Of a stretch of 41,049 nt of DNA, positions 1,808 through 10,106 are shown in pieces. The stretch comes from Terriglobia bacterium (GTDB lineage: Bacteria > Acidobacteriota > Terriglobia > Bryobacterales > Bryobacteraceae). Numbering within the stretch: position 1 is the stretch's first letter; each line of letters begins with the position of its first letter. A model generated the notes under the pieces. It was given only the letters and a program-made list of their open reading frames with translations, was not told the origin of the DNA and ran no database searches. A program made the translations under genes and the position numbers. Location of the stretch: positions 1 to 41,049 of the forward strand of contig JAJPIT010000046.1 of the NCBI GenBank assembly GCA_021324615.1, in the 5' to 3' direction.

Positions 1808-3265
1808 ATGTCCGTGCAAATCTTCCTGCAAGGAAAAATCCTCGGGATCGGCGAATTTCTGTTCGCTCCGGCCGAGCGCGACCACGATCAGGTCTTCACC
1901 GGGCGCTCGCACTGGATCAGTCTCTTAAGCGAAGTGCTGCCGCGCGCCCTGCTGGCCGAATTGGGACTGGCGAAGATTCTGCTCGGATCGAGCGGCGGCG
2001 GCCAGTTTTTGGTGGTTCTTCCGGAGGAATCGCGCGCGGCGGCGGAGACGTTTCTGCAAGCGGCGGCGCGGGAGATCTCCGCGCTCAGCAACGGATTGCT
2101 GCGGCTGCTGTGGAGCGCCACCGAAAATCTGGGGGACTGGAGCGACGTGCGCCGCCGTCTGGCCGAGGAGTTGAACCATCGCCGGGGAACGCCTCTGGAA
2201 GCGGGCGGATTCGACGCAGAGCCGGCCGCCGCCAGCCCTGACGCTCAGGATTATTTCGCCGGACAACTGGGGATGAAGCTGCGCGACGCCGAGTCGGCCG
2301 GATGGTCGCCGGAGTCGCCGGGCCGCGTTCTTACCGGCGCCGGCAAGCACGTCTGGAGCCTGGCCGGATCGCAGGCCGACGCACTGCCGTTCGCCCGCCA
2401 CGCCGCGCCAAGCGACGACGGCCGCGAGCCGGCTTCCACCTCCACGCTGGCCTCACGCGCCACCGGACTCCAGACCTGGGGAGTGCTGCGCGGCGACGTC
2501 GACAACTTCGGAATCCGGATTCGCCGCGCCCAGACCATCGAGGAACACATCCAGCTTTCGGTGATGTACAAGCAGTTCTTCGCCGGCGAGCTCGAAGTGC
2601 TGTGCTCGATGCCCGAATTTTGGCGCAAGGTCACCGTGATTTATTCCGGAGGTGACGATTTCGCGGTCTATGGCGCCTGGGACGCCCTGATCGGGCTCGC
2701 GCGTGAGATCGAGCGCCTTTTCCACCGCTTCGCCGAGACGAATCTCCAGGATTTCGCGGGACCGGAGGGCAAGACGATCAGCATGGCCCTGGCGCTCGCC
2801 CCGGCCGCCGACGCCTCGCTCGGCGCGGTGTTTGAAGAGGCCGGCGAACGGCTGGAAGCGGCCAAATCGGCGGACAAGGACTGCATCTGGCTGCTGGGCC
2901 GCACGCTCGAATGGAAACAGTTCGCCGAGGCGGCGGATCTGAAAGAATCGCTGATGCGCATGATCGCGGAGTTCGGCTGCTCGCCGCAGTATTTGCGGGA
3001 CCTGTGCGGCATTTACCGGGAAACGCAGCCGAAGATGTCCCGCCGGCAGGCCCGCAGGATGGGCGGCGAGCGCCCGTGGCGCTATCATCGCCGTATCCGG
3101 CGCATTTTAGGCGCGGCCCGTCCGGAAGGCGCCTCCGAACGGGGAGATTTTCAAAAAGCGCGCGCCGGCTTGATCGCGGATTTGATCGGCCGCAGCGCGG
3201 TGACGGTGAAGTTGCGGCCCGCCGGCCGCGTGGCGCTAGAATGGGCGAGGTTGTCGGCGGAATAG
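1808..3265 (+). CDS. csm1: Type III-A CRISPR effector large subunit Cas10/Csm1, compact, lacking the HD domain
   Basis: This 485-residue protein is the signalling subunit of a Csm complex. Residues 1-125 are the first palm (GEFLFAP, then SSGGGQF at 61-67). The second palm has the metal-binding RGDVDNFG at 228-235 and the cyclase motif SGGDDF at 280-285, followed by WDALIG; a helical D4-like region fills 370-485. Typical Csm1 is 750-850 residues with an N-terminal HD nuclease and a cysteine zinc ribbon between the palms. Here the protein starts directly at the first palm, and residues 126-225 contain no cysteine. The upstream gap is only 69 bases, so an HD domain cannot be hidden there by a frameshift. 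I infer cyclic-oligoadenylate synthesis on target binding, without Cas10 DNase activity. The ATG at 1808 gives the expected N-terminus. Confidence 0.9.
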   Translation: MSVQIFLQGKILGIGEFLFAPAERDHDQVFTGRSHWISLLSEVLPRALLAELGLAKILLGSSGGGQFLVVLPEESRAAAETFLQAAAREISALSNGLLRLLWSATENLGDWSDVRRRLAEELNHRRGTPLEAGGFDAEPAAASPDAQDYFAGQLGMKLRDAESAGWSPESPGRVLTGAGKHVWSLAGSQADALPFARHAAPSDDGREPASTSTLASRATGLQTWGVLRGDVDNFGIRIRRAQTIEEHIQLSVMYKQFFAGELEVLCSMPEFWRKVTVIYSGGDDFAVYGAWDALIGLAREIERLFHRFAETNLQDFAGPEGKTISMALALAPAADASLGAVFEEAGERLEAAKSADKDCIWLLGRTLEWKQFAEAADLKESLMRMIAEFGCSPQYLRDLCGIYRETQPKMSRRQARRMGGERPWRYHRRIRRILGAARPEGASERGDFQKARAGLIADLIGRSAVTVKLRPAGRVALEWARLSAE

Positions 3266-3306: not shown

Positions 3307-3328
3307 GAAAGAAACAGAGGATTTTTGC

Positions 3329-3982
3329 ATGGCAGACGAAGAAGTTCAACAGGAAACGGCCGCGGCAGTCGAAAGGGAACCGGCGCAAAAGGAGCCCCCG
3401 CCGCCGGAGCCGCCTAAGAGCGAACCCGCGCCGCCGGAGCCTCCGCGCACCGAACCACCCAAGCAGGAGCAGAAGCGCCGCGAGGATCGCCCGGCGCGCC
3501 CGCCCGGCGAGCCGCGCAACGAGCGCCGCTCCGACCGGCCCGGCGGCGAACGCCGTGACGATCGTAGAGAGGAGCGCCGCGGCGGCGATCGCGGCGAGAA
3601 GCGCGAAGGCGGGCGTCCGGGAGGACGCCCCTTCGAGGGACCTCCTGAAATCGAGCTCGATAAGCTGATCTCCGACAGCCTGTATCTCGACAACCAGGCC
3701 CACGCCATCGTGGCGCGCATGCGCGACATGGATTCGGGCACCAAGAGCCAGTTGCGGCGGCTGTACAACGCCGTCCGGCGCGCGGTGCGGGCTCCGGAAA
3801 ACGAGAAGCAGCATCAGTTTGTGATGCTGCGCGCCCGGCTCGCCTACACCATCGCGCGGCATTCGCTGCGCAGCCTGGACGCGCTCGAACGGCTGCTGTT
3901 GCAGGTCACCCGCAGAAACGACGCCAAAGGCTACGAGCGTTTTAAGGATTTGTTCGAAGCGATTGTCGCCTACAACGAATAA
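3329..3982 (+). CDS. csm2: Csm2 (Cas11-type small subunit) with long disordered N-terminal extension
   Basis: The C-terminal core (residues 106-217) is an all-helical Csm2: it has the SQLRRLYNAVRRAVR helix, a MLRARLAYTIAR helix and the terminal FKDLFEAIVAYNE segment typical of the family. Csm2 forms the inner filament of the Csm complex beside crRNA and target. The first 105 residues are extra. About 18-48 is a run of EPP/PPEPP repeats; about 46-100 is Arg/Gly/Asp/Glu-rich, with 18 arginines in 56 residues. Family members are usually 110-150 residues, so this one (217) is unusually long. An AGAGG ribosome site precedes the ATG at 3329, and no other Met occurs before residue 131, so the extension looks truly translated. 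It may bind RNA or promote assembly, which is inference. Confidence 0.88.
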   Translation: MADEEVQQETAAAVEREPAQKEPPPPEPPKSEPAPPEPPRTEPPKQEQKRREDRPARPPGEPRNERRSDRPGGERRDDRREERRGGDRGEKREGGRPGGRPFEGPPEIELDKLISDSLYLDNQAHAIVARMRDMDSGTKSQLRRLYNAVRRAVRAPENEKQHQFVMLRARLAYTIARHSLRSLDALERLLLQVTRRNDAKGYERFKDLFEAIVAYNE

Positions 3983-3991
3983 CGAGGACCA

Positions 3992-4825
3992 ATGAGCACA
4001 CATACCGCTCAGACACGATTGCAGCTTCTGGGGAAACTGATCCTTTCCGGGGAGCTGCACTGCGAAACCGGGCTGCACATCGGCGCGGGCAAAGGCTCGC
4101 TTGAAATTGGCGGCGCCGATAATCCGGTGGTGAAGGACGCCTTCGGGCTGCCCTATATTCCGGGCAGCTCGCTGCGGGGAAAACTGCGTTCGCTGCTGGA
4201 AGTCGCGATGGGCCTGACTTCGCCGGACGAGCTGGTTTATCTTTCGCGCCGGCGCGGGCAGGAGGTCCGCATCCATCAGAGCGACCGGCCCGACGATGAG
4301 ATCGGGCTGCTGTTCGGGCGCGCCCCCGGGCGCGTGGAGCGCGTTGAAGGCGAGGCTTTCGAGATGCGCGCCGCCAGCCCGGCGCGGCTGACGGTCTACG
4401 ACGCGCCGCTCGATCCGGAGAGCATCACCCCGCAGATGCGCGAGAATCTGGACGACGAAATCACCGAGGTCAAAAGCGAGAACGCCATCGACCGCATCAC
4501 CTCCCAGGCCAATCCGCGGACGCTGGAGCGCGTGCCGGCCGGCGCGCGTTTCAAAGTCCGCATGGTGCTCGATGTGCTTTGCGAGGAGGATAAAGCGCTG
4601 GCCGCGCGGCTGTTGGAGGGATTGCGGTTGCTCGAAGACGATGCGCTGGGCGGCGGAGGATCCCGCGGCAGCGGCCGCGTGCGCTTCGCCAACCTCCGGC
4701 TGGCGTGGCGAAATCGCGCGTTTTATTCCTCCGGAGGCGCCGAAACCGAGCTGGCCGCCGGCGGCGACCTGGGCGCGATTCAATCCGCCCTCGCCAACGG
4801 ATTCGCCGAAAAGCTCGCAAACTGA
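3992..4825 (+). CDS. csm3: Type III-A RAMP protein Csm3, backbone and target-RNA nuclease
   Basis: This 277-residue Cas7-family RAMP forms the crRNA-binding backbone and cleaves target RNA every six nucleotides. The family signature is clear: TGLHIGAGKG, IGGADNPVVKD and PYIPGSSLRGKLRSLLE. Asp43 in GADNPVVKD aligns with the catalytic Asp32 of Staphylococcus epidermidis Csm3, so RNase activity is predicted to be intact. A C-terminal glycine-rich segment (LGGGGSRGSGRV, about 225-236) is the usual RAMP G-loop. The start has a GAGGA ribosome site, nine bases after the csm2 stop. The stop overlaps the csm4 start (TGATG). Confidence 0.95.
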   Translation: MSTHTAQTRLQLLGKLILSGELHCETGLHIGAGKGSLEIGGADNPVVKDAFGLPYIPGSSLRGKLRSLLEVAMGLTSPDELVYLSRRRGQEVRIHQSDRPDDEIGLLFGRAPGRVERVEGEAFEMRAASPARLTVYDAPLDPESITPQMRENLDDEITEVKSENAIDRITSQANPRTLERVPAGARFKVRMVLDVLCEEDKALAARLLEGLRLLEDDALGGGGSRGSGRVRFANLRLAWRNRAFYSSGGAETELAAGGDLGAIQSALANGFAEKLAN

Positions 4826-5790
4826 TGGATCTGCTGGTCGATCTGTTTCCTTCCACGCCCTGGCGCATCGGGCCGGACTCCGGCGACCGCGACCGCGTGG
4901 ATCGCGTTTTCCATAGCGACTCCGTCTTCTCGGCGGTGTCCAACGCCATGGCCCGCTTGGGAATGCTCGAACCGTGGCTCGATGCGGCCGCGCGCGCCGC
5001 CCAACCCGCCGCGCGTTTCACCTCGTGCTTTCCGCTGCAAGGCGAGCATCGCTTCGTCGCGCCGCCGCGCAGCCATTGGCCGCCGCCCGCCTCGGCCAAG
5101 GTTCGATGGAAGGGAGCGCGATTCGTCCCGCTCGGCGTGGTGGGCGATCTGCTGCATGGGCGCCCGCTTTCCGAAGACGCCTGGATGGTGGACGGTCCCA
5201 GCGAATGCCTGGTGCCGCGCGGATCGCCGGGGCCGTTCCGGATCGCCGTGCGGTCCAGCGCGGCCGTGGACCGGCTGGGCCAGGCCGTGGCTCCGCATTC
5301 GACCGCGTGCCTGGAGTTCGCCCCCGGCGCGGGATTCTGGATGGGCGTCGCCTTCCGCGACGAGGAGGCGCGCGAAACCTGGCAGGGCCCGATCGAGGCC
5401 GCGCTGCGCCTGCTGGGAGACTCGGGATTCGGCGGGGAGCGATCCAACGGCTGGGGGCGCGCGGCGGTCTCGGTTTCGCCCGCCGCGGAGCTGTTGCCGG
5501 CGGTGGAAGCTTCCGAAACGGGCTGGTGGATGCTGTCGCTGTTTCATCCCGGCGCCTCCGACGCCATCGACTGGCAGCGCGGCAGCTACGCCCTGACCAC
5601 CCGCGGCGGCCGCATCGAACTCTTCGGCGGCCCCAAACGGCCAACGCGCATGATCGCCGAGGGCTCCGTGCTCATCTCGGCCAGCGAGCCGCGCGGCGCC
5701 GTCCTGGATGTCGCGCCGGAAAATTTTCCGCATCCGGTCTACCGGGCGGGGTTCGCGGTCGCGGTCGCGATCCCCTGGAGGACGCCGTGA
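4825..5790 (+). CDS. csm4: Type III-A RAMP protein Csm4, crRNA 5'-handle binding subunit
   Basis: This 321-residue Cas5-type RAMP caps the complex at the crRNA 5' handle and contacts Cas10. The N-terminus (FPSTPWRIG, then RVDRVFHSDSVFSAVSNAMARLG) is typical of Csm4, with the conserved histidine and aspartate of the FHSDS motif. The glycine-rich GFGGERSNGWGRA stretch (about residues 200-212) is the RAMP loop. The ATG overlaps the csm3 stop; the TGA overlaps the csm5 GTG, so the three RAMP genes are translationally coupled. It is longer at its N-terminus in another reading, but MDLLVDLF is the family start. Confidence 0.93.
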   Translation: MDLLVDLFPSTPWRIGPDSGDRDRVDRVFHSDSVFSAVSNAMARLGMLEPWLDAAARAAQPAARFTSCFPLQGEHRFVAPPRSHWPPPASAKVRWKGARFVPLGVVGDLLHGRPLSEDAWMVDGPSECLVPRGSPGPFRIAVRSSAAVDRLGQAVAPHSTACLEFAPGAGFWMGVAFRDEEARETWQGPIEAALRLLGDSGFGGERSNGWGRAAVSVSPAAELLPAVEASETGWWMLSLFHPGASDAIDWQRGSYALTTRGGRIELFGGPKRPTRMIAEGSVLISASEPRGAVLDVAPENFPHPVYRAGFAVAVAIPWRTP

Positions 5791-6890
5791 AATACCGCCT
5801 GGTCTGCCTCACTCCCACGCTCATCGGCGATGGCCAGAAGCTCGCTCCCATCGATTACATGGTCTGGAAAGATCATGTGAACGTGCTCGATCAGCGCCGG
5901 ATCTTCCGGTTATTGGCCAAGGGCCCGCGCCTGGATGGGTATCTGGCGCAATTGAAAAAGGCGGAGAAGCTCGATTTCGGCTCCTGGGGCGGATTTGCGC
6001 AAAACTTCGCCGGCCGGCGCATTCCTTTAGAACATCCCTCGGCGATTCCGTACTGGGAGCGGGCGCGCGGCGAAAATTTATTCATCCCCACCTTCGCGGT
6101 CTCGCCTTCCGGAGCCTACGTTCCCGGCACCGCGATCAAGGGCGCGCTGCGCACCGGCGCGGTTTTTGATCTCTGGAGCGAGGCGACGATCCGCGATCTG
6201 GCCGGCCGGTTGTCCGACGATCGCCTTCCGCGCAACTTCGCCGCCAAGGCCGAGGATTCCGTGCTGGGAGGCCCGGGCGCCAGCCGCATGCGGTGCGTCG
6301 CGGCAGGCGACTCCTCGCCCGTCGCCCATTCGAACATGAAAGTCTATCTGCTGCGGGTCTCTACGCTGGTGACGCGCGGGGCCAGGCTCGAACTGGGCTG
6401 GAAATCCCCGCGCGGCGCGGCCGATTCCCGCCACATTGAGGACGCCACGCCGATTTTCGCCGAAATGGCCGCGCCGGGAACCGTCTTTGGCGGGGATTGG
6501 CGCGAACGCTCGGCGGCCGAGCGCGGGAAGTTATTTCAGGCGTGCAACCGGCACGCCGCCGCTCTGATCGCCCGGCACAAGCAATACGCGGCGGCCGCGG
6601 GACTGCCGTATCTTGCGGCGACGATGGCCGCGCTGGAGGCGCGCGCGGCCGAGATCGGCAGCCGCACCGATGTTTGCCTGCTCTCGATCGGATGGGGCGG
6701 CGGCCTGCTTGGCAAATCGGCGTACCTGAATACGCAGGACGAGTCGTATCGGAAGATTTTGCGGCATTTTCCGCTCTATCAGAAAGCGATTCAGAGCGGC
6801 TTGCCGTTTCCCAAAACGCGCCGGATCGTGTTCCAGCAGAACCAGCCCGCCAGTTTGCCGGGCTGGGTGATGCTGGAGTTGTCGGCTTAG
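5787..6890 (+). CDS. csm5: Type III-A RAMP protein Csm5, distal cap subunit
   Basis: This 367-residue RAMP caps the crRNA 3' end of the complex; in studied systems it recruits nucleases for crRNA trimming. Evidence is the N-terminal LTPTLIGDGQ, the RAMP motif YVPGTAIKGALRTG (about 111-124) and the GWGGGLLGKS loop near 297-306. The GTG at 5787 is chosen because it overlaps the csm4 stop (GTGA) and the family N-terminus (KYRLVCLTP) begins there. It is the last cas gene in the operon. No cas6, csm6 or array follows. Confidence 0.92.
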   Translation: MKYRLVCLTPTLIGDGQKLAPIDYMVWKDHVNVLDQRRIFRLLAKGPRLDGYLAQLKKAEKLDFGSWGGFAQNFAGRRIPLEHPSAIPYWERARGENLFIPTFAVSPSGAYVPGTAIKGALRTGAVFDLWSEATIRDLAGRLSDDRLPRNFAAKAEDSVLGGPGASRMRCVAAGDSSPVAHSNMKVYLLRVSTLVTRGARLELGWKSPRGAADSRHIEDATPIFAEMAAPGTVFGGDWRERSAAERGKLFQACNRHAAALIARHKQYAAAAGLPYLAATMAALEARAAEIGSRTDVCLLSIGWGGGLLGKSAYLNTQDESYRKILRHFPLYQKAIQSGLPFPKTRRIVFQQNQPASLPGWVMLELSA

Positions 6891-9641: not shown

Positions 9642-10106
9642 ATGAGTTTTACCGTCTTTTTGGGCAACTTGCCCACCTGGGTTACGGCGGACGACATCAG
9701 GGGCTGGCTATCAGCCGAGAACCTGGTTGCGGACGCCATTAAAGTGATCCGCAATCCCGAGACGCAGGAATCCAAGGGATTCGCGTTCATTGATGCGCCG
9801 AACAGCGAAGAGATGAACGCCATCATCCGGCGCTTTGATCGGGCGCCGCTGGAGGATCGTCTGCTTCGCGCCAATCCGGCGCAGCCGCCGAAGCCGAAGG
9901 GGCAGGGGCGGCCGGGCACCGCGACGGGTCCGCATGGAGGGCATGCCGGCGCGCCATCTCAGGCCCGTCACGAGAGTCCTGCGGCGGGTGCGCAGGGCCA
10001 GGGCGAGCAGCGCCCGCCGCGGCGGGGTAAGCGCAGCGGCGGCAAGCGCAGCGGCAGCGGCGGCTCCAACAGCGCCTTCGCCGAAGAACTCGCCAAAGCC
10101 CTTTAA
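9642..10106 (+). CDS. RNA-binding protein with one RRM domain and a low-complexity basic tail
   Basis: Residues 3-80 form one RRM: RNP2 is VFLGNL and RNP1 is KGFAFIDA, with the usual spacing. The remaining 75 residues are Gly/Pro/Arg/Ser-rich, with KRSGGKRSGSGGSNS and a short helical end (FAEELAKAL), so the tail is disordered and RNA-binding in character. Small bacterial RRM proteins bind single-stranded RNA and are often cold-responsive in cyanobacteria; the role here is unknown. A 12-bp hairpin sits 36 bases upstream of the start. Confidence 0.9.
   Translation: MSFTVFLGNLPTWVTADDIRGWLSAENLVADAIKVIRNPETQESKGFAFIDAPNSEEMNAIIRRFDRAPLEDRLLRANPAQPPKPKGQGRPGTATGPHGGHAGAPSQARHESPAAGAQGQGEQRPPRRGKRSGGKRSGSGGSNSAFAEELAKAL

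Follow-up and report, generated by a model that had tools for sequence, protein, structure and literature searches.

CRISPR effectors usually turn over rapidly, by gain and by loss, and the window described here (the whole stretch of DNA that was analysed, 41,049 nucleotides) raises the question of why a type III-A operon should be kept throughout a family of soil bacteria, and of what is contributed to it by a Csm2 protein that begins with a long charged arm. The gene and its immediate surroundings are as follows.

3316 to 3321, + strand: AGAGGA, the likely csm2 ribosome-binding site, read from the sequence and flagged as SD-like
3329 to 3982, + strand: csm2, N-terminal tail included, 217 aa, an ORF with Csm2 profile matches
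3644 to 3979, + strand: Csm2 helical core, residues 106-217, with PF03750, helices from residue 110 and dN/dS of 0.014-0.062 in 7 pairs

Profile searches identified the window protein as Csm2, with E values of 6.8e-11 for Pfam PF03750, 7e-11 for NCBIfam TIGR01870 and 1.8e-14 for the PADLOC Csm2 profile, the matches spanning residues 120-216 at most. The AlphaFold model (24 sequences) has no secondary structure over residues 1-109 and a helical bundle from residue 110, and in a Foldseek search all of its top matches were Csm2, with E values of 0.03 or more and a probability of 1.00. The ATG at 3329 is the sole start codon upstream of the core in the open frame; the later start that the earlier note had named as speaking against the tail was sought in the window sequence, and no ATG, GTG or TTG occurs in the csm2 frame past 3329 before the core. 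The profile span and this sole start bear out the reading of the gene, made in the earlier note, as Csm2 with a 105-residue N-terminal tail.

The tail differs from that of the nearest relative (L032, 94% identical) by 5, 5 and 18 substitutions at the first, second and third codon positions, with 13 nonsynonymous and 12 synonymous codons, while the core differs by 1, 0 and 17, with 1 nonsynonymous and 17 synonymous codons; in 7 pairs dN/dS was 0.087-0.238 for the aligned tail codons against 0.014-0.062 for the csm2 core. Judged by these codon counts, the tail diverges faster than the core, yet as a coding frame. Csm2 frames from the loci and the window numbered 70, which after removal of nine duplicates and of two frames cut by a contig end (L005 and L063) left 59 distinct relatives with a readable start, the start being taken as an ATG 20 or more residues upstream of the core, and as one preceded by an SD-like site if such an ATG existed. 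In at least nine of these 59 relatives, among the candidates listed at up to six per frame, an in-frame ATG lies within 8 residues of the core, as would be expected if the tail were untranslated and a later start were used, but an SD-like site precedes none of these ATGs, and in the window a good ribosome-binding site stands in front of 3329. With no later start in the window and a codon-like divergence from L032, a non-coding or mis-started tail was rejected, and its likelihood is next to negligible.

The tail itself can be divided into two halves, the second of which contains a short motif that recurs in relatives.

3329 to 3472, + strand: acidic Pro/Glu half of the tail, residues 1-48, net charge -7 by composition count
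3473 to 3643, + strand: Arg/Gly half of the tail, residues 49-105, net charge +6 by composition, pLDDT below 60 over most of it
3476 to 3508, + strand: RREDRPARPPG, the window form of the recurring tail motif of the class [KR]REx-R-P-P-R, the looser motif being present in 36 of 59 relatives

Residues 1-48 include 14 Pro and 11 Glu, and residues 49-105 include 18 Arg and 11 Gly; the 18 Arg per 56 residues counted in the earlier note are found exactly in residues 45-100. With 25 basic against 26 acidic residues, the tail as a whole is a charge-balanced polyampholyte, and it contains two RG and one RGG. The comparison with RGG tails made in the earlier note has to be amended on this point, the tail not being a net-positive RGG domain: its net charge is about zero and it has a single RGG. 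The predicted disorder of residues 1-105, which have no secondary structure and low pLDDT in the AlphaFold model, agrees with that note: the first ten 10-residue blocks have pLDDT of 43-66, and the blocks of residues 111-217 have 84-94.

A tail of 34-164 residues was found in all 59 distinct relatives, so that conservation of the tail, which the earlier note had proposed to examine, was observed throughout and there was no close relative without it. The last 50 tail residues were net positive in all 57 relatives measured, and 51 of these 57 had at least three RG (the median for relatives being 5 RG and 1 RGG); two relatives with mis-cut tails that included core residues, L017 and L028, were left out of these measurements and are still within the motif count. 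A looser form of the [KR]REx-R-P-P-R motif occurred in 36 of the 59 relatives, compared with a mean of 1.5 and a maximum of 7 in shuffled sequences, and the strict form RE.RPPR in 16 of the 59 (shuffle maximum 1), while the tail sequence is otherwise mostly unalignable among relatives. The disordered arm on Csm2 is in this way demonstrated for the relatives examined. Among the ordinary Csm2 of the phylum's other families, the seven better matches had stop-to-stop frames of 137-155 aa, an eighth, weak match (L104) sits in a 440-aa frame, and a comparable tail was absent from the three ordinary Acidobacteriota Csm2 translations read (L097, L098 and L103). Somewhat longer Csm2 N-termini do exist elsewhere, since a sequence search of the PDB gave Csm2 chains of 187-196 aa (E about 0.003).

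The tail may be a mere flexible solubility linker, or the result of composition drift in a GC-rich genome, making no specific contact; we find this doubtful. Its variable length, mostly unalignable sequence, near-zero net charge and faster evolution than the core are what such a linker would present, whereas its presence in every one of the 59 relatives, an RPPR-type motif far above the shuffled level, the three or more RG in 51 of 57, the positive last 50 residues in 57 of 57 and the three tailless ordinary Csm2 are not. The tail resembles RG/RGG-rich RNA-binding disordered regions in being Arg/Gly-rich and disordered, with at least three RG in 51 of 57 relatives, and differs from them in its polyampholyte character, one half being acidic, and in having few true RGG and few aromatic residues. 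The earlier note proposed that the tails could hold RNA, drive condensation or recruit a partner, all of them putative roles; the recurring motif speaks for docking no less than for simple adhesion to RNA.

The other genes of the operon lie on both sides of csm2.

1808 to 3265, + strand: cas10/csm1, 485 aa, beginning at the first palm domain, with the HD nuclease gone and GGDD kept (TIGR02578, 175 bits; AlphaFold pLDDT 85)
3992 to 4825, + strand: csm3, backbone and predicted RNA slicer, with the Asp at the catalytic position in GGADNPVV kept (TIGR02582, 202.6 bits)
4825 to 5790, + strand: csm4, 321 aa, its start overlapping the csm3 stop codon (TIGR01903, 119.8 bits)
5787 to 6890, + strand: csm5, 367 aa, with a GTG start (TIGR01899, 53 bits)

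The model of Cas10 has 9g9j_A as its best Foldseek match (E 2.2e-21), which confirms the Csm1 fold, and at sequence level there is a weak alignment (i-Evalue 0.014) of Cas10 residues 11-84 with residues 273-348 of Csm1 8wfx_A, a protein of 813 aa. No match to an HD nuclease domain was found in the window Cas10 with domain profiles, the alignment to Csm1 or the model; a Cas10 without HD is not by itself excluded from type III. The cyclase motif in 37 loci was GGDDF in 24, GGDEF in nine, AGDDF in two and GGNDF in two (GGD[DE]F in 33 of the 37), and the first Asp of the other Cas10 palm motif, LRG-D-x-D, was changed in three of the 37. The Csm3 Asp that aligns with a conserved Asp of solved Csm3, which we take to be the slicer residue, was kept in 38 of 38 loci. 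The loss of HD and the retention of this residue are demonstrated by these alignments, as is the gene content of the operon: of the 38 loci read plus the window, 39 sequences in all, every one has csm2, 38 have csm3, 37 have cas10, 37 have csm4 and 36 have csm5, several of the 38 loci being short contigs, and the gene order in the loci read is cas10-csm2-csm3-csm4-csm5.

The operon is like type III-A (Csm) systems in having the palm domains of Cas10/Csm1, Csm2, Csm3 with the slicer Asp, Csm4 and Csm5 in order; it differs from them in that Cas10 has no HD, Csm2 is tailed, neither cas6, cas1 nor a credible array adjoins the operon in the loci read, and the operon is near-core and largely vertical in descent.

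Of 200 genomes from the family (apparently Bryobacteraceae), 183 have a Csm2 match, among them 134 of 140 good ones, with a single match in each except one genome (G090) that has two. Csm3 matches were found in 214 of 237 family genomes and in 143 of the 148 good genomes, here those with completeness of 90% or more and contamination of 5% or less; among the 214, one match is weak (G605, E 7e-9) and some at 1e-61 to 1e-87 (e.g., G084, G129 and G018) may be fragments or another Csm3. A draw of 396 genomes across the phylum showed the close form of Csm2 in its three own-genus members, and distant Csm2 (E of 5e-4 or lower) in eight others. No relatives of Csm2 were matched in plasmids. Two genera, g8 (5 of 5 drawn) and g64 (2 of 2), had no Csm2 match, several of these genomes being incomplete, and are possible natural negatives for comparison.

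For 28 genomes, the tree of Cas10, Csm2 and Csm3 had 15 of 25 splits in common with the rpoB tree, compared with a maximum of two in 500 shuffles, and the Mantel correlation between the two was 0.66 (maximum of 0.31 in 2000 permutations); the other 10 of the 25 csm splits are missing from the rpoB tree, and two pairs of well-supported splits conflict. The dN/dS values were 0.025-0.106 for csm3 (7 pairs), 0.045-0.142 for cas10 (6 pairs) and 0.019 for csm5 over the 126 codons common to the closest pair. In the closest pair, the stop-to-stop frame of csm5 gave an artefactual 0.52, against the 0.019 above for the gene itself, and dN/dS of csm4 and csm5 from stop-to-stop frames was not used, as such frames can run outside genes. 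The prevalence, the rpoB-like tree and the low dN/dS together argue against decay and for mostly vertical descent; by sequence comparison, cas10-csm2-csm3-csm4-csm5 is shown to be near-universal in the family, as a near-core operon, and under strong purifying selection.

This bears on the view that such genes are relics of a lost CRISPR-Cas system, as held for three cas genes in the genome paper of Solibacter usitatus Ellin6076, the relevant passage of which reports no CRISPRs and calls the cas genes Acid_0892, 0893 and 0895 leftovers (PMC3174227). By name Solibacter belongs to the same bacterial group and likewise has cas genes without CRISPRs, which may or may not be those of the present operon. 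The altered GGDD in four of 37 Cas10 would fit decay as well. The very low dN/dS, the open frames in the loci read, the invariant Csm3 Asp and the near-universal retention all speak the other way, and we consider relics very improbable; unlike the reading of the Solibacter genes as leftovers, the conservation of this operon argues against decay.

In 39 sequences with 3349 frames (for the window, the first 12 kb), the operon had no adjoining match to 16 Cas6 queries, which were positive in 24 of 24 Cas6 loci, or to one Cas1 query, which was run without such a control. Elsewhere in the family, Cas1 was detected in 109 of 200 genomes, the own genome included, and a divergent Cas6 in 171 of 200, unlinked to the operon and also in genomes without a Cas1 match. 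Cas6 and Csm2 do not track each other closely, there being genomes with Csm2 and no Cas6 (e.g., G031, G070 and G126) and the reverse (e.g., G003, G005 and G007). Exact-repeat scans found no array in 20 hand-chosen Cas6 loci, of which 14 were from genomes without a Cas1 match, nor in four short Cas6 loci, while in ten Cas6 loci chosen for an adjoining Cas1 an ordinary array was found near Cas6 in seven. The repeats were of the CCCC...GAAGGGGAYTGAAAC type in six of these seven arrays, and the seventh, L135, has a related hairpin with another end, so the divergent Cas6 family also sits in ordinary CRISPR loci.

The exact core of this Cas6-associated hairpin repeat was present in 39 of 200 genomes, compared with one of 200 for a reversed-pattern control, and was absent from all 12 genomes drawn from the own genus; for a looser form, three of 23 genomes of that genus were positive (two of 23 with the control), G619 alone having array-like spacing. 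No guide RNA was found with the Cas6-associated repeat patterns in the own-genus and 200-genome searches. Near the operon, no credible array was found in 70 sequences scanned for exact 20-base repeats or in six operon loci of genomes with 1-4 contigs, these scans covering exact repeats near the loci read, such that degenerate or very short arrays would escape. Exact-repeat signals occurred in five of the 70 sequences (L042, L046, L052, L058 and L059), four of them inside frames of one gene cluster, of which the two members read carry 15-residue coding repeats; the signal in L046 is a 60-base repeat, and a further repeat signal was seen in L148 in the scan of operon loci. A blastn search for a conserved noncoding element around cas10, csm5 and cas6 gave, among the matches listed, mostly pairs of close relatives, and Rfam searches of six sources identified one tRNA and nothing else. 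In the own genome the unlinked cas6 is followed, after some 45 bases, by a tRNA-Thr gene (L074:8843-8918); this gene was dismissed as a shared feature, being present in the own genome only, 1 of 20 loci. CRISPR-repeat-like palindromes (AGTCCCC...GGGGACT type) occur outside obvious arrays in some family genomes (L159, L160 and L166), and solo repeats were not accepted as guides, some of them lying in palindromic elements. The own genome has a 46-copy array with a 36-base repeat (G000:C96:14-3300, L181) and, next to it, a 644-aa frame matching Cas1; the array's repeat differs from the Cas6-associated type, and two of the first five spacers are near-identical variants.

With this separate Cas1 and 46-copy array present, crRNAs in trans are possible in the own genome. 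The operon could on these grounds be an ordinary type III-A immune effector that takes crRNAs in trans from the arrays of the genome, the HD loss and the tail being details of the lineage, an explanation to which the Cas1 matches in 109 of 200 genomes and the GGD[DE]F motif retained in 33 of 37 Cas10 lend weight. Against it stand the genomes that have the operon and no Cas1 match (e.g., G024 and G089, and also G145, which is not among the 109 with Cas1), although absence of Cas1 is no proof of absence of arrays, and the rarity of the Cas6-associated repeat (39 of 200, and 3 of 23 in the own genus for the looser form), although other repeats could serve. Nor do mobile defence genes behave like this operon, retained in 143 of 148 good genomes and with a tree resembling that of rpoB. 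Regarding cOA signalling, Csx1-CARF (PF22230) was unmatched in 101 genomes, a count that would tell against an ordinary immune effector unless another sensor serves, and PF09659 was likewise unmatched in 101 genomes, its controls being silent as well. Overall we regard an ordinary effector supplied in trans as unlikely, even with a precedent in the part of the 2025 classification that deals with type III-G, for which recruitment of crRNAs in trans is suggested (PMC12669027).

We hold it to be somewhat probable that the operon encodes a largely vertically inherited, HD-less type III-A complex that targets RNA, with guides made elsewhere and with Csm2 arms that add weak, multivalent contacts to RNA or a partner. 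In such a complex, Cas6-type guide RNAs from elsewhere in the genome would be loaded, Csm3 would cut RNA and Cas10 would not cleave target DNA. There would be several Csm2 copies per complex. Every Csm2 subunit would show one arm, acidic in one half and Arg/Gly-rich in the other, and because each of several Csm2 displays an arm, the filament would carry several weak contact sites. The arms would most likely hold the target RNA, or dock a partner via the RPPR-type motif, and may in this way make up for a complex no longer able to degrade DNA through Cas10.

A more specific version, which we put forward tentatively and as possible rather than probable, is that the Csm complex has been exapted to a housekeeping RNA-guided RNA regulator with fixed host-encoded guides, in which Csm3 slices, HD has been discarded and the Csm2 arm serves as a multivalent scaffold. 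A near-universal, multi-subunit type III effector without a DNase domain, and with no adjoining array found, points either to a second job or to stable sharing of crRNAs in trans. The Csm2 arm, an addition in the relatives examined that is absent from the ordinary Csm2 read, may be tied to such a second job, and the conserved arm together with an inherited, slimmed-down complex may hint at another, everyday use of an immune machine. Compared with the earlier note, the finding extends from a tailed Csm2 to a family-wide, inherited, HD-less Csm operon with no array found beside it.

Among known systems, type III-G is similar in that its effector locus has neither adaptation genes nor an array; it is described in the 2025 classification as having an apparently active HD and unconserved Cas7 aspartates (PMC12669027), whereas the present operon has no HD and keeps the Csm3 Asp in all 38 loci. 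The terms 'Csm2' and 'Acidobacteri' are absent from the main text of the same paper (PMC12669027). No CRISPRs were detected in Bryobacteraceae strain F-183 according to the relevant passage of its description (PMC8759368), and a survey of Acidobacteriota counts CRISPRs per class and names no such operon in its passages on the subject (PMC11245096). At the level of titles and abstract openings, no published description of this operon was found beyond the Solibacter passage.

The genes flanking the operon mostly differ between loci and are common to a few groups of loci. Of the 32 sequences that extend 1.2 kb or more downstream, 19 have an ExeA/GspA-like AAA+ ATPase gene (PF13401) in the 600 bases after csm5 and on the same strand (for example L039:11412-12323), a possible operon partner; the csm5 of the window is followed by an amidase gene and not by this ATPase. 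Further downstream in the window, positions 9642-10106 encode, judging from the translation, an RRM-like small protein with a Gly/Arg/Lys-rich tail of its own.
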